In this document: in pieces, positions 1 through 12,817 of the stretch | Numbering within the stretch: the stretch's first letter is position 1 | Layout: the number at the start of each line of letters is the position of its first letter | Source: Roseobacter insulae | GTDB taxonomy: Bacteria > Pseudomonadota > Alphaproteobacteria > Rhodobacterales > Rhodobacteraceae | Assembly: GCF_019375555.1 (NCBI RefSeq) | Contig: NZ_JAHXDN010000001.1 | Span: 783,501-847,500, forward strand | DNA: 64,000 nucleotides | Direction of reading: 5' to 3' | Notes under the pieces: model-generated | Seen by the model: only the letters and a program-made list of their open reading frames with translations | Databases searched by the model: none | What the model was told of the DNA's origin: nothing | Position numbers and translations under genes: made by a program

Positions 1-984
1 ACCCTGCTGAACATGATTGCGGGGCTGGAAGAAATCACCAGCGGCGAAATTCGCATCAAGGACAGCGTGATGAACGGCGTTCATCCCTCCAAGCGCAATA
101 TCGCCATGGTGTTCCAGAGTTACGCGCTCTACCCGAACATGACGGTCGGTCAGAACATCACCTTCGGGCTTGAGATGCACGGCACGCCGAAACCGGAACG
201 GGAAAAGGCGATGCGCGAGGTCGCGAAGCTGTTGCAGATCGAACAATTGCTGGACCGCAAACCCGGGCAGTTGTCGGGCGGTCAGCGGCAGCGTGTCGCG
301 ATGGGCCGGGCGCTGGTGCGCAACCCGGATGTGTTCCTGTTTGACGAACCGCTCTCCAATCTCGATGCCAAGCTGCGCGTGGATATGCGCACCGAGATCA
401 AGAAGCTGCACCAGAAACTTGGAACGACCATCGTCTATGTCACCCACGATCAGATCGAGGCGATGACCCTCTCCACGCGGATCGCGGTGATGAACGGAGG
501 CTACGTTCAGCAGCTGGGCACACCTCAGGAAATCTACGACAGTCCGGCAAACATCTTCGTTGCCACCTTCATGGGATCACCGGCAATGAACGTGCTGCCG
601 GCGCATGTCCGCCTGCAGAAAGATGCGCCGCATGCCGAGTTCTCGCTGCATGACGGGTCGTTGGCCCTGTTGCCGTTCAGTCAGAAAAACCTCGCCGCCT
701 GGGAGGGGAAGGAAATCCTGCTCGGCATTCGGCCGGAAACCCTGACGGACGTGGACGGCGCAGACCGGAAATCATCCAACATCGCCGAGATGACGAACCG
801 TATCGTGGTGACCGAACCGGCGGGCTCGGACACTTTCGTATCAATGCAACTGGGTGGCAAGGATGTGATTGCACGGATGCGGTCCGATGCCGAAGTGCGG
901 GCGGGGCAGGATTTCACCTTTGCCGTCAACATGGAAAAGGCGGTCGCGTTCGACCCTGAAACCGAAGCCCGCATTGCGCCCTGA
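1..984 (+). CDS. Sugar ABC transporter ATP-binding protein, 5'-truncated (UgpC/MalK type)
   Basis: This is the nucleotide-binding subunit of a CUT1-type (sugar/polyol/glycerol-phosphate) ABC importer, acting on the cytoplasmic face of the inner membrane. The window edge removes the N-terminus and the Walker A loop: the frame is already open at base 1 and reads TLLNMIAGLEE, the segment that normally follows Walker A. Visible are the Q-loop region (MVFQSYALYP), the signature LSGGQRQRVAMGRAL, Walker B (VFLFDEPLSNLDAKLR) and the H-loop (VTHDQIEAM). A C-terminal TOBE/MalK-like regulatory part follows (GIRPETL). Its stop overlaps the next start (TGATG), so it is probably the last transporter gene of an operon continuing into the dehydrogenases. 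The transported sugar is not readable from the sequence. Confidence 0.9.
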   Translation, partial: TLLNMIAGLEEITSGEIRIKDSVMNGVHPSKRNIAMVFQSYALYPNMTVGQNITFGLEMHGTPKPEREKAMREVAKLLQIEQLLDRKPGQLSGGQRQRVAMGRALVRNPDVFLFDEPLSNLDAKLRVDMRTEIKKLHQKLGTTIVYVTHDQIEAMTLSTRIAVMNGGYVQQLGTPQEIYDSPANIFVATFMGSPAMNVLPAHVRLQKDAPHAEFSLHDGSLALLPFSQKNLAAWEGKEILLGIRPETLTDVDGADRKSSNIAEMTNRIVVTEPAGSDTFVSMQLGGKDVIARMRSDAEVRAGQDFTFAVNMEKAVAFDPETEARIAP

Positions 985-2480
985 TGCAACCCGACGTGAT
1001 CATAGTTGGCTCTGGAATGGGCGGGGCAACGCTGGCCGCGGCCCTTGCGCCCAGCGGCCGTCGTGTCCTGATCCTTGAACGCGGTGAGAGGTTGCGCCCC
1101 TGCGCTGCCGACCGCGACGCCGGGGCGATATTCGCGACTGGATTTTTTCGACCGGACGAGCAGTGGGTTGATGGCGACGGCACCAGCTTCAGTCCCGGGA
1201 ATTACTATTGCGTCGGCGGCAACTCCAAATTTTACGGCGCCGTCCTGATCCGATATCGCGAAGCTGACTTTGCACCGGTTGAACACCTGGGAGGCCGGAC
1301 GATTGGCTGGCCCATCGCATATGCCGACCTCGAAAAGGATTACCTTGCTGCTGAACACCTCTACCAGGTGCGTGGCAAGGCTGGTGAAGACCCGACGGAA
1401 CCGCGCCGCTCGGGCAGCTATCTGCACGGGCCGGTCGCGGATGAGCCGGACATCGTGGATGTGCGGCACCGCCTGGCCGGTATCGGCCTGCACCCCGCGT
1501 CCCTGCCTTTGGGCGTGGACGTTGATCACTGGCTGGCCAACGGCCAGACGCCTTGGGACGGTCATCCCGACACCTGCGATGGCAAGATGGATGCGGAGAC
1601 GGTTGGCATCAAGACAGCGCTTGAGCATCCCAACGTCGAACTGCAGACCGGGTGCTGCGTGTCGGGCCTTACCATGCACCCGGACGGGCGCGTTGCGGGC
1701 GTGAAATGCGTGGTAGACGGGGTGGCCCAGACGTTTCAGGCGCCGCTTGTCGTGGTCGCGGCGGGGGCGGTTCAAAGTGCGGCCTTGCTGCTGGCATCGG
1801 CAAACGACGATTATCCCACCGGTCTGGCAAACACCTCCGATCAGGTGGGTCGCAATTTCATGAACCACAATTGCTCGGCTGTGCTGGCGCTGCACCCGCT
1901 GCGCAAGAATCGTGCGATCTATCAGAAAACCCTGATGGTCAATGACTTTTACCTGTCCGGCGGGCAGGGTGGCGCCCCGCTTGGCAATGTGCAGTTGCTT
2001 GGAAAAATATCGGCGCCCATTCTGGCGTCCGCAAGCCGATTGCCGGAGTGGATGGCAGGGATGATCGCCACCCGGTCCGTCGATTTCTACGCCATGTCCG
2101 AAGATTTGCCTGATCCCGACAGCCGCGTGACGCTGGTGGATGGAGCCGTCAAACTGGACTGGCGACGCTCGAACTGGCAGGCACATGAAGCGCTTGTCGC
2201 CAAACTGAAAACCTCGTTGCGCAAGGCAGGTTTCCCGATCGTGATGTCGCGGGCCTTTGATCGCCGCACCCCCTCGCATCAGTGCGGCACCGCGCGCATG
2301 GGAAATGATCCGGGCACCAGCGTGGTGAACACCTTCTGCCGCAGCCATGATCATCCCAATCTGTTCATCGTCGACGCTTCGGTGCTGCCAACCTCGGCCG
2401 CGGTGAACCCGGCACTGACCATCGCAGCCCTAGCCTTGCGCGCCGGGCGCCATATCACGGAAACGGAGTTTGCAGCATGA
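984..2480 (+). CDS. GMC-family FAD-dependent oxidoreductase
   Basis: A 498-residue flavoprotein of the glucose-methanol-choline family. The N-terminus carries the dinucleotide-binding motif VIIVGSGMGGATLAAAL. The C-terminus carries the family's catalytic region, HQCGTARMGNDPG, then FIVDASVLPTSAAVNPALT with the active-site Asn. No signal peptide or twin-arginine motif is visible, so it is probably cytoplasmic. It looks closer to the sugar/polyol (gluconate or glucoside dehydrogenase-like) branch than to choline dehydrogenase, which is a judgement from motif spacing only. The start overlaps the upstream ATPase stop by one base and the stop overlaps the SDR gene by four bases. Co-translation suggests it oxidises the sugar imported by the upstream transporter. 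The exact substrate is unknown. Confidence 0.85.
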   Translation: MQPDVIIVGSGMGGATLAAALAPSGRRVLILERGERLRPCAADRDAGAIFATGFFRPDEQWVDGDGTSFSPGNYYCVGGNSKFYGAVLIRYREADFAPVEHLGGRTIGWPIAYADLEKDYLAAEHLYQVRGKAGEDPTEPRRSGSYLHGPVADEPDIVDVRHRLAGIGLHPASLPLGVDVDHWLANGQTPWDGHPDTCDGKMDAETVGIKTALEHPNVELQTGCCVSGLTMHPDGRVAGVKCVVDGVAQTFQAPLVVVAAGAVQSAALLLASANDDYPTGLANTSDQVGRNFMNHNCSAVLALHPLRKNRAIYQKTLMVNDFYLSGGQGGAPLGNVQLLGKISAPILASASRLPEWMAGMIATRSVDFYAMSEDLPDPDSRVTLVDGAVKLDWRRSNWQAHEALVAKLKTSLRKAGFPIVMSRAFDRRTPSHQCGTARMGNDPGTSVVNTFCRSHDHPNLFIVDASVLPTSAAVNPALTIAALALRAGRHITETEFAA

Positions 2481-3235
2481 GCAGGGTCGCTTTGGTCACC
2501 GGCGGGCAGCAGGGCATTGGTCTGGGCATCTCGCGCCTGCTGGTGGACGCCGGATTTCAGGTGGCACTTGCGTCGCGTTCTGGTCAGGATAGTCCGGCGG
2601 TCGCGGCCGCGCTCTCCGAACTTGACGGGGCGGCCTGTTATTTTCAGCACGACCTGTCGGACGTTGACCACGTTCCGGCGCTGCTCGATGAGGTCACCCA
2701 GGCGCTGGGTCCGATCACGGCCTTTGTCAGCAATGCCGGTGTTGGCGCGCCGGTCAGGGGGGACATGCTGGAGCTGTCACCAGAAAACTGGGATTTCGTC
2801 CAGAACATCAACCTGCGCGGCGCCTTTTTCCTGGCTCAGGCAGTGGCGAAGCACATGCTGGCAGAGGCTGGCGAGGACTATCGCTCCATCACCTTCATCA
2901 CCTCGGTCAGCGCTGCCATGGTGTCCACCGAACGTGCCGAATACTGCGTTTCAAAAGCAGGGGCGGCGATGATGTCGCAACTGTTTGCGGCGCGTCTTGC
3001 ACCACATGGCATTGGTGTATTCGAACTCCGCCCCGGAATCATTGCAACCGAGATGACAGCAGGAGTGCGCGACAAATACACCAGCCGGATCGAGGGCGGC
3101 CTGGTTCCGGCGCAGCGTTGGGGAGACCCGAAGGATGTTGCAGAAGTTGTTGTTGCCGCAGCAACCGGTCAGATGCGCTTTGCCACAGGGGCCAGTATCC
3201 CGGTGGATGGCGGTCTGTCGATCTCAAGGCTGTAG
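2477..3235 (+). CDS. Short-chain dehydrogenase/reductase (SDR)
   Basis: A 252-residue classical SDR, an NAD(P)-dependent oxidoreductase of the Rossmann type. The cofactor motif TGGQQGIG lies at about residues 8-15, the NAG motif is in FVSNAGVG, and the catalytic YxxxK is in EYCVSKAG with the Ser in TSVSAA just upstream. The C-terminal GASIPVDGG is the usual SDR ending. It overlaps the upstream GMC gene by ATGA and is followed after 8 bp by a second GMC gene. It probably oxidises or reduces a ketose or alditol intermediate of the same pathway. Family annotation tools will often call it 3-ketoacyl-ACP reductase, but the context argues for a sugar substrate. Confidence 0.85.
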   Translation: MSRVALVTGGQQGIGLGISRLLVDAGFQVALASRSGQDSPAVAAALSELDGAACYFQHDLSDVDHVPALLDEVTQALGPITAFVSNAGVGAPVRGDMLELSPENWDFVQNINLRGAFFLAQAVAKHMLAEAGEDYRSITFITSVSAAMVSTERAEYCVSKAGAAMMSQLFAARLAPHGIGVFELRPGIIATEMTAGVRDKYTSRIEGGLVPAQRWGDPKDVAEVVVAAATGQMRFATGASIPVDGGLSISRL

Positions 3236-3243
3236 AGCGTAAA

Positions 3244-4836
3244 ATGACTGAAGGATACGATTTCATCATCATCGGTGGCGGGTCTGCCGGGTCGGTGATC
3301 GCGGCGCGGCTGTCAGAAGATGCAAACGTGCGCGTCCTGCTGTTGGAAGCGGGCGGTGGCGACCGGCACCCGTTTTTCCATCTGCCCGCCGGATTCGCAA
3401 AAATGACCAAGGGCATTGGCAGCTGGGGTTGGCACACAACACCGCAGCGGCATATGCAGGATAAGGTCTTCACCTATACGCAGGCAAAGGTGATTGGTGG
3501 CGGCTCGTCTATCAACGCGCAGATTTACACGCGTGGTGCGGCGCAGGATTACGATGAATGGCGCCAGCTGGGGTGCGACGGATGGAGCTATGACGAGGTC
3601 CTTCCGTATTTCATTAAGTCGGAAGACAACGACACGTTTGACAACGAGTTTCACGGTAAGGGTGGCCCGCTGGGGGTCAGCCAGCCGGCAGCACCCCTGC
3701 CGATTTGCGATGCCTACATCAGGGCGGCAGGTCAGCTGGGCATACCTCAAAACAAGGACGTCAACGGCGCCCGGCAGGATGGCGCGGCCTATTACCAGCT
3801 TACCCAGAGAAACGCCCGACGGTCTTCGGCGGCGATGGCTTTTCTGGCGCCGAACAAGGGGCGGCCAAACCTGACAGTGCGCACCGGGGCGCATGTGCAC
3901 CGCATCCTGTTTCGGCGCGGGCGCGCAACGGGTGTGCAAATGGGGGACGGCACCCGGATCATAGCCGACCGCGAGGTGATCCTGTCATCCGGTGCCATCG
4001 GGTCGCCCAGACTTTTGCAACTGTCGGGTGTCGGCCCCGCCGATCATCTGACATCCCTGGGTATCGAGGTGGTGGCGGATCAGCCGAATGTGGGGGCGGA
4101 CCTGCAGGACCACCTGGACCTCTATACAATTTGCGAGGTGACGGGACCGCATACCTACGATCGGTATGCCAAGCTCCATCTGTCGGCGCTGGCCGGGCTG
4201 CGCTACCTGTTCACGCGCAAGGGGCCGGTGGCCTCCAGCCTCTTTGAAACGGGTGGTTTCTGGTACGCGGATCCGGATGCACGCTCGCCCGACATTCAGA
4301 TGCATCTGGGTCTGGGCACCGGGATCGAAGCCGGGGTCGCGGCAATGCCCAACGGCGGTGTGACGCTGAACGCCTGTTTCCTGCGCCCGCGGTCTCGTGG
4401 CACGGTCAGGTTACGGTCCGGCGACCCGGCCGACATGCCGCTGATCGACCCCAATTACCTGGCCGACCCCTATGATCGCGAGATGTCGGTGCGCGGGTTG
4501 AAGCTGGTGCAATCGATCCTCGCGCAGGATGCTTTGAAACCGTATATCCTTGCCGAGCGGCTGCCCGGGCCGGATGTGCAGACCGATGAAGACTACTTCA
4601 ACTTCATTTGCACCCATTCCAAAACCTCGCATCACTGCGCGGGCACTTGTCGCATGGGGGGGGACGACCGTGCGGTTGTTGACCCGCGGTTGCGGTTCAA
4701 CGGCATCGAAGGGCTGCGGGTCGCGGATGCCTCGATCATGCCCCGCGTGAATTCCTCCAACACCAATGCCCCCACCATCATGATCGGTGAAAAGGCCGCT
4801 GACATGATCAAAACAGACCAAGGACTTAGCCAATGA
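3244..4836 (+). CDS. GMC-family oxidoreductase, choline-dehydrogenase-like
   Basis: A 530-residue GMC flavoprotein. The start chosen is ATG 3244; the frame is open further upstream, but that part overlaps the SDR gene. The N-terminal FAD motif is FIIIGGGSAGSVIAARL, followed by the family signature region KVIGGGSSINAQIYTRG. The C-terminal catalytic part has TSHHCAGTCRMGG (His) and SSNTNAPTIMIGEKAA (Asn). This is the alcohol/choline dehydrogenase subgroup and is clearly different from the first GMC protein of the operon. Relatives oxidise primary or secondary alcohols with FAD and pass electrons to quinones. The neighbours suggest a sugar alcohol or glycoside rather than choline. It overlaps the next gene by ATGA. 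Confidence 0.88.
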   Translation: MTEGYDFIIIGGGSAGSVIAARLSEDANVRVLLLEAGGGDRHPFFHLPAGFAKMTKGIGSWGWHTTPQRHMQDKVFTYTQAKVIGGGSSINAQIYTRGAAQDYDEWRQLGCDGWSYDEVLPYFIKSEDNDTFDNEFHGKGGPLGVSQPAAPLPICDAYIRAAGQLGIPQNKDVNGARQDGAAYYQLTQRNARRSSAAMAFLAPNKGRPNLTVRTGAHVHRILFRRGRATGVQMGDGTRIIADREVILSSGAIGSPRLLQLSGVGPADHLTSLGIEVVADQPNVGADLQDHLDLYTICEVTGPHTYDRYAKLHLSALAGLRYLFTRKGPVASSLFETGGFWYADPDARSPDIQMHLGLGTGIEAGVAAMPNGGVTLNACFLRPRSRGTVRLRSGDPADMPLIDPNYLADPYDREMSVRGLKLVQSILAQDALKPYILAERLPGPDVQTDEDYFNFICTHSKTSHHCAGTCRMGGDDRAVVDPRLRFNGIEGLRVADASIMPRVNSSNTNAPTIMIGEKAADMIKTDQGLSQ

Positions 4837-5141
4837 TCCGCCACATCGTATTGACCCGCTTTGCCACGGATACAGCTGAAGAAACAATTGCCGGTATCTA
4901 CGGCGACCTGGAACGCCTGACAGAAACGCTGGCCGGTGCTGGCAATTTCGGCGGTGGCCGATCGCAAAGCCCCGAGCAGATTGAACGCGGCTACATGCAC
5001 GGGTTCACCATCGATTTCGACACATGGGACGATTTGCGAACCTATGCGGAAGATGAACACCACAAGTCGCTTGGTGCGCAGATCGTTGCACTTGCGGCAG
5101 GCGGTCTGGACGGTGTCCTTGTTCTGGATATTGAAGTGTGA
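4833..5141 (+). CDS. Dabb (stress-responsive alpha/beta barrel) domain protein
   Basis: A 102-residue protein of the dimeric alpha/beta barrel superfamily. It shows the typical start MIRHIVLTRF, a central EQIERGYMHGFTIDF segment and a C-terminal VLVLDIEV strand. Dabb proteins form ferredoxin-like dimers; members act as small enzymes, for example ring-closing cyclases, or have unknown roles. The gene overlaps the upstream GMC dehydrogenase by four bases (ATGA) and is followed 10 bp later by the DUF993 gene. It is therefore very likely part of the same catabolic operon and may handle a reactive product of the dehydrogenases. No catalytic residue can be assigned. Confidence 0.75.
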   Translation: MIRHIVLTRFATDTAEETIAGIYGDLERLTETLAGAGNFGGGRSQSPEQIERGYMHGFTIDFDTWDDLRTYAEDEHHKSLGAQIVALAAGGLDGVLVLDIEV

Positions 5142-5151
5142 GGTGACGAGG

Positions 5152-6312
5152 ATGTTGAGGCTGCCCACTGACGACGGAAAGCTAGTGGCCTACGGGATGT
5201 CGGGTGATCCGCTGATCCCGCGTGCGCCGGAAGTTGCGCTGTCGAGAACCGCCTTTGCCGCCGCGCATGTGGTGTCTGACCCGCTGAAGGATCGAAACCC
5301 GTGGGACACCCGACCTGCCGTGGATTGGGACGCGACGCTGCATTTTCGCCAAGGCTTGTGGGATCAGGGGCTTGGCCTTGCCGAGGCCATGGATACCGCG
5401 CAACGCGGCATGGGGGTCGATTGGGAGACAGCGAGGGAACTGATAGACCGGACCATGGCGGCAGCCAGGGCACATCCGCTGAAACCGCGTGTTGCCTGCG
5501 GTGCCGGTACCGATCACCGGCCGCTGGAAACACTGATCACGGCCGCCGGGATTCTGCGCGCCTACGTCGACCAGGCAGAGGCGATCGAAGCAGCGGGCGG
5601 GCAATTGATCCTGATGGCTTCGCGTGCCTTTACGGCGATGCATGCTTCCCCGGACGTGTATCACACTGTCTACCGATCCTTGATTGACGGAGCCGCGGAA
5701 CCGGTGATCCTGCATTGGCTTGGCGACATGTTTGATCCGGCCCTGGCCGGATATTGGGGTAGCACCGACATCGGTGCCGCAAATGACTTTGTGCTGGGGC
5801 TGATCGCGGAGAATCCCGCCAAGGTTGATGGTATCAAGATATCGCTCCTCGACCAGGCGCATGAAGAAGCTTTCAGAGCCCGCCTGCCGGACGGTGTGCG
5901 CCTTTATACGGGCGATGACTTCAATTATGCTGACCTCATCGCTGGCGATGGCGCGCATTATTCGCACGCGCTGCTCGGCATATTCGCGGCCATTGCTCCG
6001 GCGGCGTCACAAGCGCTCGAAGCTCTGGCCCGGGACGATGTCGCCACCTTTCACGCGCTTCTCGCTCCGACCGTTCCGCTCAGCCGCGAGATATTCCGCC
6101 CGCCGACGCGCTTTTACAAGGCTGGCATTGCTTTTTTGTCCTGGCTGAACGGCTATCAGGCCCATTTCATCATGCCGGCGGGGTTTCAGTCCAGCCGCGA
6201 CATCACGCATTACGCCAATGTCTTCCGCCTTGCGGACGAGGCGCGGCTGTTGACCAGACCGGATATAGCGGAAGACCGGATGAAAACCCTGCTATCTTTA
6301 CATGGCATCTGA
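5152..6312 (+). CDS. DUF993 family protein (dihydrodipicolinate synthase-like TIM barrel)
   Basis: A 386-residue protein that I recognise as DUF993, a family annotated as related to the dihydrodipicolinate synthase/aldolase TIM barrels. Recognisable segments are the beginning LRLPTDDGKLVAYGMSGDP, then ACGAGTDHRPLETLI, the strongly conserved ILHWLGDMFDPALAGYWGS, VDGIKISLLDQ (a Lys at the position expected of a Schiff-base lysine) and YTGDDFNYADLI. Start ATG 5152 is chosen because the longer frame overlaps the Dabb gene. DUF993 genes tend to sit in carbohydrate loci. An aldolase-like or lyase role on an oxidised sugar would fit, but that is inference. Confidence 0.75.
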   Translation: MLRLPTDDGKLVAYGMSGDPLIPRAPEVALSRTAFAAAHVVSDPLKDRNPWDTRPAVDWDATLHFRQGLWDQGLGLAEAMDTAQRGMGVDWETARELIDRTMAAARAHPLKPRVACGAGTDHRPLETLITAAGILRAYVDQAEAIEAAGGQLILMASRAFTAMHASPDVYHTVYRSLIDGAAEPVILHWLGDMFDPALAGYWGSTDIGAANDFVLGLIAENPAKVDGIKISLLDQAHEEAFRARLPDGVRLYTGDDFNYADLIAGDGAHYSHALLGIFAAIAPAASQALEALARDDVATFHALLAPTVPLSREIFRPPTRFYKAGIAFLSWLNGYQAHFIMPAGFQSSRDITHYANVFRLADEARLLTRPDIAEDRMKTLLSLHGI

Positions 6313-6324
6313 TACGCACGTCCC

Positions 6325-7323
6325 ATGGAGCGACGACCAACGATAATTGATGTGGCCAAGGCAGCCGGGGTGTCGAAATCGACCGTGAGCCTCGTTTTGC
6401 AGCGCAGTCCGCAGGTCAAGGAAGACACCCGCATTCAGGTCCGCGAAGCCATGGCGCGGGTTGGCTATGTTTACAACCGGTCAGCGGCCAATCTGAGGTC
6501 GGCCTCAACCGGGCTGATCGGCCTTGTCATCAATGATCTGCGCAACCCGTTTTTCACAGAGTTTGCAGCCTCCTTGCAGATGAAGTTGGCCGAAGAGGGA
6601 TATGCGGTTGTTCTGGCCAACATCAACGAAGATGCCGAAATGCAGGCCAAAATGATCGTTGCCCTGATTGAACACGGCGTCTCCGGTTTTGTCGTCTCGC
6701 CGGCTTACGGCGCCGAAGACAATACGCTGGAGGCCATTGCGCGGGCGGGTCTCCCGGCCATTCAGGTCTTTCGAAAGGTCGATGATCGCGACGATCTGTT
6801 CCCCTTCCTCGCGCCCGATTATCAGACGGGCAGTCGGCTGGCGACCGAGCATCTGTACAACCGGGGGTGCACGCAGGTGGCATTTGTTGGTGGCCTCGCT
6901 GACCGGGCCGTGACCATGGAACGTATGTCCGGCTATCTCGAAGTGACATCGCAGCGCGGTCATGAGCCAATCGTGATAACCGGGGCCGCCAGTCATGAGT
7001 TCGGTGTCCGCGGCGCGCGAGACTTGTACGACAACTATCCCGACGTGGATGGCGTGTTGTGCTTCAATGATCTTGTCGCCCTTGGTCTGATGGCGGGCAG
7101 CCAAAAGCTTGGACGGTCCATTGGCAAGGACCTGCGGGTTGTCGGGTTCGACAATATTGAGGGATGCCTGCAAAGCGAGCCACAACTGACCTCCGTCAGC
7201 TGTGGCATTCCCGGGTTTGCCGAAGAGATTTCCCGGCGGATGCTCGCATGGCTGAATGACGGCACACCGCCAGAACTGGGCGGCCGCACCGCTGTCGAGC
7301 TTGTTGTGCGGGGCTCCAGCTGA
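6325..7323 (+). CDS. LacI-family transcriptional regulator
   Basis: A 332-residue LacI/GalR-type repressor. The N-terminal helix-turn-helix reads TIIDVAKAAGVSKSTVSLVL, with the hinge helix region near NRSAANLRSASTGLIG. A periplasmic-binding-protein-like effector domain follows (GLVINDLRNPFFTEF, VSGFVVSPAYG, GVLCFNDLVALGLMAG). The gene begins 12 bp after the DUF993 stop, so it is probably the last gene of the sugar operon and regulates it in response to the imported sugar. It may also control the binding protein/BCCT pair that follows. Operator-like inverted repeats lie in the intergenic region just downstream. Confidence 0.9.
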   Translation: MERRPTIIDVAKAAGVSKSTVSLVLQRSPQVKEDTRIQVREAMARVGYVYNRSAANLRSASTGLIGLVINDLRNPFFTEFAASLQMKLAEEGYAVVLANINEDAEMQAKMIVALIEHGVSGFVVSPAYGAEDNTLEAIARAGLPAIQVFRKVDDRDDLFPFLAPDYQTGSRLATEHLYNRGCTQVAFVGGLADRAVTMERMSGYLEVTSQRGHEPIVITGAASHEFGVRGARDLYDNYPDVDGVLCFNDLVALGLMAGSQKLGRSIGKDLRVVGFDNIEGCLQSEPQLTSVSCGIPGFAEEISRRMLAWLNDGTPPELGGRTAVELVVRGSS

Positions 7324-7579: not shown

Positions 7580-8731
7580 ATGAGCCGCTGTAAATACACA
7601 ATCGACACTTGGCGAAAGGGGCTATTGACCGCATTCGTTTTCGCCTTATCGGTGAGTTCTGCCAATGCTCAGGCGACGCAAGATGCCGCAGTGCCGATGC
7701 CGGAAATTACATTCACCTCGTGGACGGGTCCTTACATGCGCAGCCAGATGCTGGGCTTTGTGCGCCCCTACGAAGAGCAAACCGGTTCTCGCGTGCATGT
7801 CGCGCATTACAATGGCGGCATTGCGGAGATCAGAGACCAGGTCGAAAGCGCCAATGTGATCTGGGACGTCGTTGACCTGACTCAGGCGGATTCACTGCGG
7901 GCCTGCCGCGAGGGTCTGCTGGAAGATCTGTCCGATATTGATCTGCCGGGTGGCGCGGACGGGACACCTTTTCGCGAAGATTTTGTCGATGGTGCGCTAA
8001 ATGATTGCGGCGTTGGCGTGATTGTCTGGGGCACTGCCTTTGCCTACAGCAATTCGCTGTTCGCGGATAATCCTCCCGCTACAATTGCCGACTTTTTCGA
8101 CACGGATGCCTATCCCGGCGCCCGTGCGATCCGGAATGATCCAACCGTCATTATGGAATGGGCTCTGATGGCCGACGGCGTGGCGCGTGAAGACGTCTAC
8201 CAGACCCTGGAAACGGCGGAAGGTGTCCAGCGGGCTCTTAAAAAGATGGATGCGATCAAGCCGGGCCTGCAAATCTGGCAATCCGGTCGTCAACCGGTCC
8301 GCCTGCTGAATGCGGGCGAGGTTGCGATGTCGTCGATCTGGGCCACGACCGGGGCAACCGCCGCCATGGAGGAAGGCGCGGATTTCACCGTCAACATGGA
8401 TGGTCGCGTGATCGAGCTTGACCTCTTCGGCATTCCCAAGGGCAGTCGGCACAAGGAAGCGGCGAAGGAGTTCATCCGGTTTGCCAGCAGCACCAAATCA
8501 CTGGCCGATATGGTCGGATACTTGCCCAATGGCCCGACACGCAAGTCGTCGCTGTCGCTTTTGTCCGACGATGTGCTTGGTCAAATTCCGAATGGCCCGG
8601 CGTATGAAGACAAACTCTTCATTCGGTCAGATGCGGAATGGTGGTCTGCAAACCACGCCCGGCTGGAAGAGGCATTCAGAGAATGGCTGTCCACATCTGC
8701 GCGCCAGGGTGCCGCAGGCTCGACACGATAA
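7580..8731 (+). CDS. PotD-type ABC substrate-binding protein, orphan, beside a BCCT transporter
   Basis: A 383-residue extracellular solute-binding protein of the spermidine/putrescine-type family. An N-terminal signal peptide is visible (basic start, hydrophobic LLTAFVFALSVSS, cleavage near ANA-QA). The mature part begins ITFTSWTGPYMRSQM. It shares landmarks with the binding protein at 53584-54690: a WDVVD motif, then MEWAL, a DGV and LETAEG. Spacing and order match, so the two are paralogues. There is no ABC permease or ATPase next to it. Instead a BCCT secondary transporter follows after 29 bp. The ligand is unknown; a quaternary amine or polyamine-like cation would fit both partners. Confidence 0.85.
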   Translation: MSRCKYTIDTWRKGLLTAFVFALSVSSANAQATQDAAVPMPEITFTSWTGPYMRSQMLGFVRPYEEQTGSRVHVAHYNGGIAEIRDQVESANVIWDVVDLTQADSLRACREGLLEDLSDIDLPGGADGTPFREDFVDGALNDCGVGVIVWGTAFAYSNSLFADNPPATIADFFDTDAYPGARAIRNDPTVIMEWALMADGVAREDVYQTLETAEGVQRALKKMDAIKPGLQIWQSGRQPVRLLNAGEVAMSSIWATTGATAAMEEGADFTVNMDGRVIELDLFGIPKGSRHKEAAKEFIRFASSTKSLADMVGYLPNGPTRKSSLSLLSDDVLGQIPNGPAYEDKLFIRSDAEWWSANHARLEEAFREWLSTSARQGAAGSTR

Positions 8732-8760
8732 GTGGAACATTGGGACAAAGAGGTACTAAG

Positions 8761-10362
8761 ATGACAAACGAAACAACAAATCGACCTGATAATCTTGTTT
8801 CACGTTCCGGCCTGTTTGCAGGCATGAATGCAACGATGGGCGTCGCGTCCATCGTAATGATCCTGGGGTTCGTCCTGTTTACGATCCGAGATGTGGAGGC
8901 TTCCAGCGCTGTCTTTGCCTCCGGAAAGGATTTTATCATCGGCAGTCTGGACTGGTTTTACGTGGTGGTCGTCAATGCCGCCCTGTTCTTTGTGCTGTGG
9001 TTGATGATCAGCCGTTTCGGTGATGTGAAGCTGGGCAAGGACGATGACGAACCGGATTTCTCGACCTTCTCCTGGATCTGCATGCTGTTCAGCGCCGGGC
9101 TCGGGTCCGGCCTGATCTACTGGGGGGTGGCCGAGCCGATGTTCCATATCCAGGGCAGCCCGTTCCTGACGCGCGAAGGTCTTGAGGCGGGATCAGTCGA
9201 CGCCGCCGTTTCCGCGGTCACGATCACGAATTTCCATTGGGGGTTTCATGGCTGGGCCCTTTACGTGCTGGTCGGACTGAGCCTCGCCTATTTCTCTTAT
9301 CGCCACGATTTGCCACTTACGCTGCGCACCGCGCTATATCCTGTTCTCAAGGATCGGGTTTACGGACCATGGGGCCATCTGGTCGACCTTGTTGGCGTGT
9401 TTGGCACGATTTTTGGTCTCGCGACCTCGCTGGGTCTGGGGGTGACCCCGATCGCTGCGGGCCTTGAGAACCTCGGATGGATGGAAAACACCCAGACGAA
9501 CCAGTTGATCCTGGTGGCGATCATCACCTGTCTGGGAACGGCCTCGGCGGCATCAGGTGTCGGCAAGGGGGTACGGATCCTTTCCGAAGCCAACGTGATG
9601 GCCAGCATTGCTCTGCTGATCCTGTTCATCATACTGGGGCCAACAGCCTTCCTGTTGGGCGTGACCATCTCCGGCTTTGGCAACTACATCTGGAACGTCA
9701 TCCCGATGGGCTTCTGGATCAACGGTGACCCAGAGAACCAATGGCAAAGCTGGTGGACCATATTCTACTGGGGCTGGTGGATCGCATGGTGCCCGTTTGT
9801 CGGATTGTTCATTGCCCGCGTGTCCAAGGGCCGGACGATCCGTCAGTTCTGCTACTGCGTTCTGCTGATCCCGACGTCGGTGGTCATGTTATGGATGGGT
9901 GTTTTTGGCGGTGCGGCCGCCGGGGTTGACCTGTTCTATAACGCTGGAGTTGTCGACGCCGTGAACGGTGATTACGCGGCTGGCGTTTTCCAGACCGTGG
10001 CCGGTTTTGGATACAGCGGACTGGTTTACCCGATCACTGTCTTGATCACGGTCTTGCTGATCTCGTGGTTCGTGACATCGTCGGATTCCGGCACGCTTGT
10101 GATGTGCACGATGCTGTCCATGGGTGACGAGCATCCACCGGTCAAATTCCGCATCTTCTGGGGGCTCACAGCCGGTGTCGTGGCTGGCGTGCTGATGCTT
10201 GCCGGCGGGCTCAGCGCCCTGCAAACGGCATCCATCGTTGCCGGTCTGCCAATTGCGGTGATCTTGTTGTTGATGATTTACGGCATCGTTCACTCGCTGC
10301 ATGAAGAGCATCCTTTGCCGGATGTCGAAGACAAGTACGCCCTGGAATTCCTGAACCGCTAG
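8761..10362 (+). CDS. BCCT-family transporter (betaine/carnitine/choline type)
   Basis: A 533-residue secondary transporter with about 12 membrane segments. ATG 8761 is chosen because the longer frame overlaps the binding-protein gene. The family's aromatic regions are intact: NFHWGFHGWALY in the TM4 region and WTIFYWGWWIAWCPFVG from about residue 332. This predicts uptake of a quaternary-ammonium or related compound coupled to an ion gradient. The glycine stretch that reads GMGIG in BetP is GLGSG here (residues 113-117). The N-terminus is short and the C-terminus ends soon after the last helix (HSLHEEHPLPDVEDKY). It thus lacks the long osmosensing tail of BetP, suggesting nutrient uptake rather than osmoregulation. 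An intrinsic terminator follows. Confidence 0.92.
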   Translation: MTNETTNRPDNLVSRSGLFAGMNATMGVASIVMILGFVLFTIRDVEASSAVFASGKDFIIGSLDWFYVVVVNAALFFVLWLMISRFGDVKLGKDDDEPDFSTFSWICMLFSAGLGSGLIYWGVAEPMFHIQGSPFLTREGLEAGSVDAAVSAVTITNFHWGFHGWALYVLVGLSLAYFSYRHDLPLTLRTALYPVLKDRVYGPWGHLVDLVGVFGTIFGLATSLGLGVTPIAAGLENLGWMENTQTNQLILVAIITCLGTASAASGVGKGVRILSEANVMASIALLILFIILGPTAFLLGVTISGFGNYIWNVIPMGFWINGDPENQWQSWWTIFYWGWWIAWCPFVGLFIARVSKGRTIRQFCYCVLLIPTSVVMLWMGVFGGAAAGVDLFYNAGVVDAVNGDYAAGVFQTVAGFGYSGLVYPITVLITVLLISWFVTSSDSGTLVMCTMLSMGDEHPPVKFRIFWGLTAGVVAGVLMLAGGLSALQTASIVAGLPIAVILLLMIYGIVHSLHEEHPLPDVEDKYALEFLNR

Positions 10363-10391
10363 CGGCTTGGTTCAGGTCCATCACAAATCGA

Positions 10392-10421
10392 AGGGGCGGA
10401 TCAACCCGCCCCTCTTTCCTC
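10392..10421 (+). terminator. Rho-independent terminator after the BCCT gene
   Basis: A 7-bp GC stem GGGGCGG (10393-10399) / CCGCCCC (10406-10412) with an A-T pair extending it, a 6-nt loop and a T-rich tail (TCTTTCCT). It lies 30 bp after the BCCT stop codon and ends that transcription unit. The rest of the gap up to rpsT shows only a weak promoter candidate. Confidence 0.75.
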
Positions 10422-10520
10422 TGCGGCACCACCGACACAGACCCGGATCGCGCCGCATTCCGATAGGCCCGCCGGACAAGACCAGACAAGGCTGGTCGAT
10501 ACCTGCGCGCATTTTCGGGT

Positions 10521-10548
10521 TTGCAATTCCTGTGACGTTCTTTATAGA
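10521..10548 (+). promoter_or_regulatory. Candidate promoter for rpsT
   Basis: A TTGCAA (10521-10526) and a TATAGA (10543-10548) are separated by 16 bp, about 120 bp before the rpsT start. The match to sigma-70 elements is fair but could be chance. A TAGAAT at about 10581 is a second possible -10 element. Confidence 0.3.
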
Positions 10549-10669
10549 CCGCCCGATACATGCGCGTGCAGCCCGCTTTGGCTAGAATCACCTTTGGTTG
10601 AACAGCAACCGGATCGGGTTGGCACCGTGCTATTGAGAGACACACGACCCGAAAAAAGGTACAGCACAT

Positions 10670-10933
10670 ATGGCCAATTCGCCACAGTCCAAGAAACGCG
10701 CCCGCCAGAACGAAGCGCGGTTCCAGATCAACAAAGCGCGTCGTTCGCGCATCCGCACCTATCTGCGCAAAGTCGAGGAAGCGATCGCTTCCGGTGACAA
10801 AGACGCCGCCTCTGCCGCGCTGAAAGCGGCCCAGCCTGAACTGATGCGTGGAGTAACAAAGGGCGTTTTCCACAAAAACACCGCAGCGCGCAAAGTGTCC
10901 CGCCTGTCCGCGCGGGTTAAAGCTCTGGGTTGA
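10670..10933 (+). CDS. rpsT: 30S ribosomal protein S20
   Basis: An 87-residue, highly basic protein with the family's start [19 protein letters not shown] and the conserved [15 protein letters not shown] near the C-terminus. S20 binds 16S rRNA in the body of the small subunit. Length and composition are normal. It is monocistronic here: a terminator lies upstream and another directly downstream. Its position immediately before dnaA is typical of Rhodobacteraceae and related alphaproteobacteria. Confidence 0.97.
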
Positions 10934-10956
10934 GCCAATCTACAACTCTACTCGAA

Positions 10957-10986
10957 AAGAGCGTCGCGCAAGCGGCGCTTTTTTGC
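10957..10986 (+). terminator. Rho-independent terminator after rpsT
   Basis: Stem AGCGTCGC (10960-10967) / GCGGCGCT (10972-10979), with one G-T pair and a GCAA tetraloop, is followed by a run of T residues (10979-10984). It is a classic intrinsic terminator 26 bp after the rpsT stop. Confidence 0.85.
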
Positions 10987-11458
10987 ATTATTGAGACACT
11001 TTCCTCCCCACCCAGAGATTCTTTTTTGAAAATTCAGAGTCAAGAATGAAGTTCAGTTGCCGTGTCGCTCACGAAGTTGCTACCAGTGTAGTGCGATTCA
11101 TTTCGCCATGGGGGGACAGGCTCTGAAAGTTCGATCCGCACTGCTGCGGGCCAAAGGACGTCAGGGACTGAGTGTTGCCTAACACGCAATGCGTTCAGTC
11201 TGCAAACGCTGCCAACACAGCGTTTTGCCCTGTCATAAAAAGTACGGACGGTGTCGTCTGATTGGTTACTGGGCTTTGTGCATGCAAGGCGCTTGCCAGT
11301 CGGATTGTGCCTAATCTGTAGTCGAGCGGCAGCTAGCCATCCGTTTCCATACGCGGGAACGGAGACGCCATTTGTCGTCTGAGATACGAGGCGATGCGGC
11401 TATCTAAAAAATGGGGCTGTGTCTGAAATTGGAACGCTAGAGGGAAAACAGGTCAAAC
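10987..11458 (+). promoter_or_regulatory. Long leader/promoter region of dnaA; no clear oriC
   Basis: A 472-bp non-coding stretch. I could find no DnaA box matching TTATCCACA or its complement and no obvious AT-rich repeats, so an origin is not supported here. Three GANTC sites (CcrM-type methylation motif) lie close together at 11017-11021, 11037-11041 and 11095-11099. In Caulobacter, dnaA transcription responds to CcrM methylation, so these may be functional. An AGAGGGA about 15 bp before the ATG at 11459 may serve as the ribosome-binding site. Confidence 0.45.
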
Positions 11459-12817
11459 ATGACTAAAGAAAAATGGGGGCAGCTGAGGCAGCGGCTGCTG
11501 AAAACGGTGGGTCAGAACAACTATACAAACTGGATCGAGCCGATTGAGTTTCGGGCAGCAGATGATGGCATCGCAACCTTTGATGTGCCGACGAACTTTC
11601 TGGGCAATTACGTCAACCAGAACTTTGCAGATCTGATACTGCATGAGCTGAAATCCGAAGATCCGACCGTGCGACGCCTGGAGTTTTCTGTCCCCGCGCA
11701 AGCAGACGGTACGGCAGAAACCACGAATAAGGCGACAGCCCCCCGCGCCGTTCCGAAACCCGCGTCTGGCAGCGCATTGGCGACAGCCCCCCTCGACAAG
11801 CGTTTCACCTTTGACACTTTCGTTGTCGGCAAGCCAAACGAACTGGCCCACGCCGCCGCACGCCGTGTCGCCGAGGGTGGCCCGGTGACCTTCAACCCTC
11901 TGTTCCTGTACGGGGGGGTTGGCCTTGGTAAAACGCACCTGATGCACGCGATTGCCCACGAATTGCGCCAGCGTCGTCCTGACCTCAATGTCCTGTATCT
12001 CTCTGCCGAGCAGTTCATGTATCGGTTTGTTCAAGCATTGCGTGACCGAAAGATGATGGATTTCAAAGAGATTTTCCGTTCGGTTGACGTGCTCATGGTG
12101 GATGATGTCCAGTTCATCGCGGGCAAGGACAGCACGCAGGAGGAATTTTTCCACACCTTCAACGCGCTGGTTGACCAAAACAAGCAGATCATCATCTCGG
12201 CGGATCGCGCGCCCGGCGAGATCAAGGATCTGGAAGACCGTGTGAAATCACGCCTGCAGTGCGGGCTGGTTGTGGATCTGCACCCAACTGACTACGAGCT
12301 GCGCCTGGGCATCCTGCAATGTAAGGTGGAGCAACAGAAGGCCAATTACCCCGGGCTGGAGATCGAAGCGGGTGTGCTGGAGTTCCTCGCGCACCGCATC
12401 TCGACGAACGTGCGGGTGCTGGAGGGCGCTTTGACACGGCTGTTCGCCTTTGCCTCGCTGGTCGGGCGTGAAATCAATATGGAGCTGACACAGGATTGTT
12501 TGTCCGATGTGCTGCGTGCTTCGGAACGCAAGATCACGGTCGAGGAAATTCAGCGCAAAGTATCCGACCACTACAATATTCGCCTGTCGGACATGATCGG
12601 CCCGAAGCGTTTGCGCTCCTATGCGCGTCCGCGGCAGGTGGCGATGTATCTCTGCAAGAAGATGACCAGCCGGTCGCTGCCTGAAATCGGTCGCCGGTTC
12701 GGCGGTCGTGACCACACAACCGTGATGCACGGCGTCAAGCGGATCGAGGAACTGAAGTCTCAGGATGGCCAGATCGCCGAAGATCTGGAACTGCTGCGCC
12801 GCGCGCTGGAAGAATAG
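11459..12817 (+). CDS. dnaA: Chromosomal replication initiator protein DnaA
   Basis: A 452-residue initiator. Domain I (about residues 1-75) contains NYTNWIEPIEF. A low-complexity linker rich in A, P and T follows to about residue 110. The AAA+ domain has Walker A GGVGLGKT (152-159) and Walker B MVDDVQFIAG. The C-terminal DNA-binding domain carries the signature GGRDHTTVMHGVKRI. It binds ATP and DnaA boxes to open the origin. All key motifs are intact and the length is normal. It is followed by a GC-rich hairpin and then dnaN. Confidence 0.98.
   Translation: MTKEKWGQLRQRLLKTVGQNNYTNWIEPIEFRAADDGIATFDVPTNFLGNYVNQNFADLILHELKSEDPTVRRLEFSVPAQADGTAETTNKATAPRAVPKPASGSALATAPLDKRFTFDTFVVGKPNELAHAAARRVAEGGPVTFNPLFLYGGVGLGKTHLMHAIAHELRQRRPDLNVLYLSAEQFMYRFVQALRDRKMMDFKEIFRSVDVLMVDDVQFIAGKDSTQEEFFHTFNALVDQNKQIIISADRAPGEIKDLEDRVKSRLQCGLVVDLHPTDYELRLGILQCKVEQQKANYPGLEIEAGVLEFLAHRISTNVRVLEGALTRLFAFASLVGREINMELTQDCLSDVLRASERKITVEEIQRKVSDHYNIRLSDMIGPKRLRSYARPRQVAMYLCKKMTSRSLPEIGRRFGGRDHTTVMHGVKRIEELKSQDGQIAEDLELLRRALEE

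Follow-up and report, generated by a model that had tools for sequence, protein, structure and literature searches.

Can a solute-binding protein (SBP) of the ATP-binding cassette (ABC) type work with a secondary carrier of the BCCT family? This question is raised by a locus in a 64-kb stretch of the genome of Roseobacter insulae, the whole of which we call the window, where the gene for a secreted SBP is directly followed by one for a BCCT. In the available part of a review (PMC7876524) the BCCTs are described as proton- or sodium-driven carriers and no binding protein is named for them. The earlier note on this DNA had said much the same, citing the tripartite ATP-independent periplasmic (TRAP) systems as the classic binding-protein-dependent secondary carriers. 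Its statement stands but is incomplete, as the tripartite tricarboxylate (TT) transporters and the TAXI-GltS system are likewise SBP-linked secondary carriers; according to the available part of the report on TAXI-GltS (PMC12344293), co-operation with a soluble SBP had previously been known for the TRAP and TT families only. The main text of that report nowhere uses the word BCCT, and the SBP-BCCT pair was not found in the open-access literature to which our search was confined, subscription papers and preprints lying outside its scope.

Here we report that the pair recurs in diverse proteobacterial genomes, in two gene orders and with a short C-terminal tail that, among the rows compared, only the paired SBPs have. 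We propose, with a probability that we would put at roughly 0.7 on the strength of comparative sequence evidence, that in this pair a BCCT takes up a zwitterion with the help of the binding protein.

Recurrence of the gene pair

When the species genome collection was scanned for the window SBP by means of short peptide patterns, 93 relatives were obtained, of which the best 80 were kept. At every one of the 51 best-scoring loci among these 80 (L021-L071, with about 42-80% SBP identity) the direct same-strand neighbour of the SBP gene is a BCCT sequence, so that the adjacency, which the earlier note had allowed might be found only here, is in fact widely shared; among the remaining 29 loci a BCCT match is present in L073 only. 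Four of the 51 (L043, L047, L052, L054) preserve just the start of the BCCT before the contig end, recognized by translation in L043 (24 residues) and by tblastn in the other three, whereas L071 has a partial BCCT and L057 lacks the SBP end and much of the BCCT, both being truncated at their junction. SBP identity alone does not separate the two groups, in that Pseudomonas SBPs at 43% are unpaired.

The SBP gene stands first in 41 of the paired loci (L021-L061) and second in the other ten (L062-L071), with short gaps or overlaps between the genes in most of them, as judged from mechanically called gene starts. Going by record titles, the hosts include Ruegeria, Roseovarius, Roseobacter, Litoreibacter, Pseudohalocynthiibacter, Silicimonas, Nitratireductor, Kiloniellaceae, Hyphomicrobiales, Competibacteraceae and several gammaproteobacterial metagenome-assembled genomes (MAGs). 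When the genes surrounding 53 loci (the window, L021-L071 and L073) were clustered, the SBP cluster had 53 members, the BCCT cluster 48 and the next largest 7; small groups of relatives have some synteny in common, and no other gene recurs widely around the pair. With all 51 of the best-scoring loci showing it, the adjacency of the SBP and BCCT genes is far beyond chance.

We also approached the pair from the side of the carrier. In 394 genomes of the same family, all six BCCTs of at least 85% identity have the SBP alongside; these belong to the window, to the genomes of L021, L026, L037 and L039 (the four already in the SBP scan), and to genome G269. No SBP of this kind lies within 1.5 kb of the 24 BCCTs at 42-52% identity that were inspected in these genomes, where the remaining four of the 34 BCCT matches gave no new locus, nor at 29 further BCCT loci (L134-L162) drawn from the inspected part of the matches in 398 genomes of the phylum. 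Among the 28 SBP loci read in 274 gammaproteobacterial genomes, L218 has a BCCT and the tail described below, and the other 27 have neither. As the coordinates of L218 match those of L058 from the first scan, we rejected it as a fresh positive, and the gammaproteobacterial set adds only negatives.

A C-terminal tail of the paired binding proteins

The paired SBPs continue for 13-14 residues after their last Trp, versus 3-4 residues in 57 of 61 other rows, and their last seven residues, ending in a free C-terminus, conform to GxxGxxR in 51/51 paired rows and in 0/61 of the others. The 51 rows comprise L021-L071 without the truncated L057 and without L067 (read out incompletely, its tail GRGLSGTAR being visible in alignment A1), together with L103, which is identical to L021, and L104, the window itself not being included. 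The 61 others take in L073, the second SBP of L064 and at least one duplicate (L012/L163), and leave out L079, L091, L095, L165, L182, L184 and L191, with read-outs too short, and L097, with no stop. The tail is also absent from the 27 unpaired gammaproteobacterial SBP loci mentioned above, and was not found in any of the ABC-linked relatives examined.

In the AlphaFold model of the window SBP, residues 376-383 fall below 50 in predicted local distance difference test score (pLDDT), pointing to a disordered tail. The codons for its invariant residues vary among the paired SBPs, and selection therefore acts on the protein; further, the tail is retained both where the SBP gene is the first of the two and where it is the second. 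For both reasons we rejected the alternative that the stretch is conserved at the codon level as a signal to the gene that follows. In its form the tail resembles a docking peptide, and it may take part in docking.

C-terminal extensions of a different kind were encountered in other SBPs: those of L212, L214 and L215 end in a WLERPVRVPRALPH-like sequence and that of L170 in WLERPVMVPKSMPR, with no ABC matches within 1.5 kb in any of the four. Each of these SBP genes comes after a gene that is porin-like by eye, with a coiled-coil start; the gene in question at L170 gives no Pfam match.

Carriers of separate clades and a common binding-protein lineage

In the BCCT tree, carriers from loci of the SBP-BCCT order (alpha-type) and of the BCCT-SBP order (gamma-type) constitute separate clades, with the latter falling among unpaired BCCTs of the window's family. 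A single clade of paired BCCTs is rejected by the approximately unbiased (AU) test (log-likelihood difference 76.6, p-AU 1.28e-17), the group to be tested having been defined in the light of a first tree. The SBPs of both pair types, along with that of L073, group together apart from the rest, with a support of 88 in the Shimodaira-Hasegawa-like approximate likelihood ratio test (SH-aLRT), in a tree built without 11 near-identical Pseudomonas rows; duplicate loci were removed before both trees. Two histories would account for this: BCCTs may have acquired a partner from this one SBP lineage on two or more occasions, or the pair may be ancestral, with loss of the SBP in the unpaired lines and a change of gene order. 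Within the paired loci SBP and BCCT distances co-vary, with r 0.979 over 47 loci and 0.903 over the 38 of alpha-type; in the smaller subsets r is 0.782 (36 core alpha-type loci) and 0.855 (nine gamma-type loci). The locus L073 from an Arenicellales MAG (9980-12696) may be a third case of such pairing: its SBP, of 38% identity, is encoded 20 bp upstream of a BCCT that is nearest the CaiT model (495.5 bits, under the cut-off of 541), and it stands as a single locus.

Among the carriers, a Ser at position 116 in a GLGSG motif marks the alpha-type paired BCCTs, Ile being usual in the others compared, and 10 of the 23 alpha-specific positions are periplasmic, versus about 6 expected. This weak periplasmic bias is all that was found by way of paired-specific BCCT features, and we do not count it as support.

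Fold, carrier residues and probable substrate

The window SBP matches the Pfam family SBP_bac_8 (PF13416) with 131.9 bits against a cut-off of 27. The label PotD-type given by the earlier note is apt for the fold and not for the PotD family proper, as the NCBIfam PotD equivalog PRK09501 is reached with only 25.3 bits, below its cut-off of 582, and the nearest structures are those of gamma-aminobutyric acid (GABA) and opine binders. The AlphaFold model (mean pLDDT 90.5, made with the 61 sequences of alignment A1; blocks of residues 41-370 average about 89-98) has as its top structural match 8jv1, the SAR11 PotD with GABA (Z 43.2, root-mean-square deviation 1.8 over 336 residues), followed mainly by opine binders and GABA sensors at Z 37-41; the spermidine/putrescine binders, i.e., the classic PotD/PotF, match less well, at Z about 28-29. 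The protein has the fold of its class and, by eye, the secretion signal, and lacks a cognate permease and ATPase in its operon.

The identification of the partner as a BCCT is borne out by a full-length match to Pfam PF02028 (566.2 bits, cut-off 27) and one to TIGR00842 (455.1 bits, cut-off 407.55); in Pfam it matches BCCT only, with no DctQM, TctAB or GltS membrane partner of the SBP. Alignment with BetP (4ain) pairs HWGFHGWALY, WGWWIAWCPF and FVTSSDS of the window BCCT with HWTLHPWAIY, WAWWISWSPF and FITSADS of BetP, respectively. These segments hold the residues that form the betaine aromatic box of transmembrane helices 4 and 8 and the Thr/Ser of the Na2 site, all of which the window BCCT keeps, and we infer that it is Na+-coupled.

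Two unpaired BCCT kin, L134 and L135 (48-49% identity), adjoin a gene for an iron-containing alcohol dehydrogenase, and L134 also lies near a CoA-transferase-like gene. These surroundings presumably represent the DddT-DddB-DddD arrangement for dimethylsulfoniopropionate (DMSP), the dehydrogenase being the component that was checked with models. From the structural matches of the SBP, the betaine-box and Na2 residues of the BCCT and this DMSP-like neighbourhood of its kin, a betaine-, DMSP- or GABA-like zwitterion is predicted as the likeliest class of substrate.

Weighing the explanations

We propose that the SBP and the BCCT together form one uptake system for a zwitterionic solute, such as a betaine or a DMSP-like, GABA-like or gamma-butyrobetaine-like compound. 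The secreted SBP would bind the solute tightly in the periplasm and pass it to the BCCT, a carrier of the LeuT fold that is presumably Na+-coupled, with the GxxGxxR tail taking part in docking. That the SBP delivers its ligand to the BCCT is suggested by their linkage and by the conservation of the tail. BCCTs operate as rocking-bundle carriers.

The earlier note had left this possibility beside that of an SBP serving a remote ABC complex. In the latter account the SBP would feed a distant ABC permease, as do the orphan SBPs of the Cbc transporter, and the BCCT would provide a further, independent means of entry for that substrate, linked to the SBP by way of co-regulation. Extra SBPs recruited by one ABC core reportedly exist, as Chen et al. 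2010, cited in PMC10132767, are said to have described; the R. insulae genome has Pot-type ABC systems of its own, one with an SBP 36% identical to that of the window, and at least one Pot-type permease is present in 6/6 pair-carrying genomes searched. Nevertheless, we regard this account as unlikely, for it is always a BCCT that adjoins the SBP at the 51 best-scoring loci, none of the ABC-linked relatives examined has the tail, and no orphan permease set was found among the Pot/Msm-type sets examined in three pair-carrying genomes. Thus, each of the seven best such sets of R. insulae has its own SBP (several of these named by eye, and the count omitting five weaker permease matches with E 5e-10 to 9e-9, one of which is the partner permease of a counted set), and an SBP likewise accompanies the sole permease detected in G195 (2.2 Mb, 93% complete) and the two detected in G269. 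Hence, for the window SBP to feed a remote ABC system, it would probably need a permease that is already served by another SBP. The recurrence, the two gene orders, the lack of a single BCCT clade, the tail confined to paired SBPs and the permease sets with SBPs of their own all argue for a binding-protein-assisted BCCT over a remote ABC partner.

The contents of the neighbourhoods also favour this reading. In the 3.8-21 kb of DNA compared per paired locus, Pot-type permease matches occur in 2/51, both about 8-9 kb off. The unpaired relatives, by contrast, have both permease and ATPase in 26 of 28 loci of one set (L072, L074-L100; the other two have one of them) and in all eight of another (L010-L017). 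Within a 1.5-kb flank, both are present in 20 of the 29 loci L163-L192 (without L178, the window's own), a permease only in one and neither in eight; of the 27 unpaired gammaproteobacterial loci, 16 have both ABC genes, five have one and six have neither.

The SBP might instead modulate the BCCT, sense its ligand or store it, that is, regulate the carrier or buffer the periplasmic ligand without handing it over. While close unpaired relatives of the carrier (L107-L116) are without a neighbouring SBP of this kind, and the disordered tail could be a regulatory peptide, the SBP retains the fold of uptake SBPs, its top structural matches being transport SBPs or sensors built from them, and we hold such a role to be quite improbable. 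It is harder still to credit a linkage without function, whereby two genes that were neighbours of old would have been passed on together through common ancestry and gene transfer. The co-divergence of SBP and BCCT is indeed what any linked pair would display, but the pair persists where no other neighbour is found in more than 7/53 loci, it occurs in two gene orders with BCCTs of separate clades, and the tail is restricted to the paired SBPs in the rows examined.

Several observations weigh against co-operation between the SBP and the BCCT. The tail may be a mere inherited trait of one SBP clade, and the SBP of L073, which stands beside another kind of BCCT, is without it. The periplasmic loops are not clearly more conserved in paired than in unpaired BCCTs, and the gamma-type paired carriers are close to their unpaired kin (the nearest being L107), so that they have hardly been deeply remodelled for an SBP. 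ATPase-like matches are present in 10/51 paired loci, closest in L041 and L044, and the absence of a neighbouring permease by itself says little, because the 8/29 and 6/27 unpaired SBPs noted above also have no ABC genes within 1.5 kb. No fusion of an SBP with a BCCT was encountered, although there was no systematic search for one. Finally, the SBP-linked secondary carriers described up to now are known or believed to be of the elevator type (PMC12344293), to which BCCTs do not belong.

The window locus and its surroundings

The features of the locus are collected in Table 1. The coordinates agree with the 29-bp spacing of the two open reading frames claimed by the earlier note, and the signal peptide that it had read on the SBP can be recognized by eye as one of the Sec type.

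Table 1. Features of the SBP-BCCT locus, in window coordinates.
Feature	Coordinates	Strand	Description	Basis
SBP gene	7580..8731	+	383 aa; SBP_bac_8, GABA/opine-binder subgroup of PotD-like fold; extracytoplasmic	PF13416, AlphaFold model, structural match to 8jv1
Probable Sec signal peptide	7580..7669	+	SBP residues 1-30, cleavage ANA/Q; no lipobox Cys seen	Read by eye
C-terminal GxxGxxR-COOH tail	8708..8728	+	SBP residues 377-383, GAAGSTR	Comparison of SBP ends and AlphaFold model
Spacer of two-gene unit	8732..8760	+	29 bp, with AGAGG resembling a ribosome-binding site (by eye)	Sequence
BCCT family carrier gene	8761..10362	+	533 aa; ATG start at 8761	PF02028, TIGR00842, BetP 4ain alignment

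Inspection of the window genes found no ABC gene flanking the pair, in keeping with the earlier note: the closest on the upstream side is an ATPase gene ending at 984, part of a sugar-type ABC system that looks complete by eye, its 428-aa SBP being encoded just outside the window. The upstream region (1-7323) comprises this ABC operon, genes for two GMC oxidoreductases, a short-chain dehydrogenase/reductase (SDR), and Dabb and DUF993 proteins, and that for a LacI-type regulator (6325-7323), which adjoins the pair; on the other flank are genes read by eye as rpsT, dnaA, dnaN, recF and gyrB. The GMC oxidoreductases, SDR, DUF993 and LacI genes were set aside as clues to the substrate because the pair is not accompanied by this set at other loci.

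The survey also turned up other gene neighbourhoods of SBPs and BCCTs. At L064 (7213-10060), L181 (1498-4057) and L183 (3-2571) a PotD-type SBP gene lies directly downstream of, and overlaps, a gene for a ClC-type chloride channel (gene starts again mechanically called), with no ABC matches in the stretch read; the ClC gene was recognized by Pfam Voltage_CLC and CBS matches in L064 and L183 and by eye in L181. These loci represent a possible second pairing of an SBP with a secondary carrier. At L168 and L169 the SBP gene is flanked by genes that by eye are like those for flavin adenine dinucleotide (FAD) oxidoreductases and ornithine cyclodeaminases, with no permease match in the 1.5-kb flank. 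The BCCT genes of L125, L127 and L128 adjoin ABC genes, the wider loci being L131-L133; L131 and L132 have a complete Pot-type ABC transporter followed by the BCCT gene, and the cluster at L131 includes, by eye, creatinase, creatininase and sarcosine oxidase genes, with an SBP different from the window kind.

Comparison with known systems

With the GABA/opine ABC transporters of the PotD-like group (the SAR11 PotD of 8jv1, MotA, Atu4243, AgtB) the window SBP has its fold and sequence group in common, but it is without an adjacent permease or ATPase and bears a tail that is missing in the ABC-linked relatives examined. In Pseudomonas, the orphan SBPs of the Cbc transporter are of the OpuAC type and serve one ABC permease with quaternary amine substrates; they join a transporter core encoded elsewhere, whereas the constant neighbour of the SBP studied here is a BCCT. 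The stand-alone BCCTs, such as BetP, BetT, CaiT and those of the DddT type, are of the same family as the window BCCT, have in common with it the residues of the betaine aromatic box and of the Na2 site (Thr/Ser), and differ in having no SBP of this kind adjoining them in the loci inspected.

Among secondary carriers, the TRAP and tripartite tricarboxylate transporters exemplify the SBP-dependent, ion-driven uptake that we propose for the pair, with DctQ/DctM or TctA/TctB as the membrane partner instead of a BCCT. The closest parallel is TAXI-GltS (Bordetella pertussis BP0403-BP0402), where, according to the available part of the report on it (PMC12344293), an SBP of another transporter class is likewise linked to a usually solitary family of Na+ symporters, with no cognate membrane partner of the SBP alongside. 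In that system a TAXI-type SBP is combined with GltS, a member of the ESS family modelled as elevator-type, the substrate is glutamate and fusions are known (PMC12344293). The pair described here differs in combining an ABC-type SBP_bac_8 protein with a LeuT-fold BCCT, with no fusion seen and with a short conserved C-terminal tail in place of extra domains.

In the same report the authors of TAXI-GltS ask why so few kinds of secondary carriers are linked to SBPs, suggest that some property of the elevator mechanism may be needed for this, and point out that further novel classes would allow this idea to be tested (PMC12344293). Because BCCTs are LeuT-fold carriers, the recurrent SBP-BCCT pair offers a direct test of the elevator requirement, with the advantage that the carrier structures are well known and the putative docking peptide is short enough to mutate; an SBP-assisted BCCT, if true, would overturn the idea that only carriers of the elevator type can make use of SBPs. 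The pair also bears on how bacteria might scavenge scarce betaines or DMSP without the cost of ATP. Thus, if co-operation were to be proven, it would join TRAP, TT and TAXI-GltS among the SBP-linked secondary carriers, bringing to them an unrelated class of SBP and a carrier of another fold.

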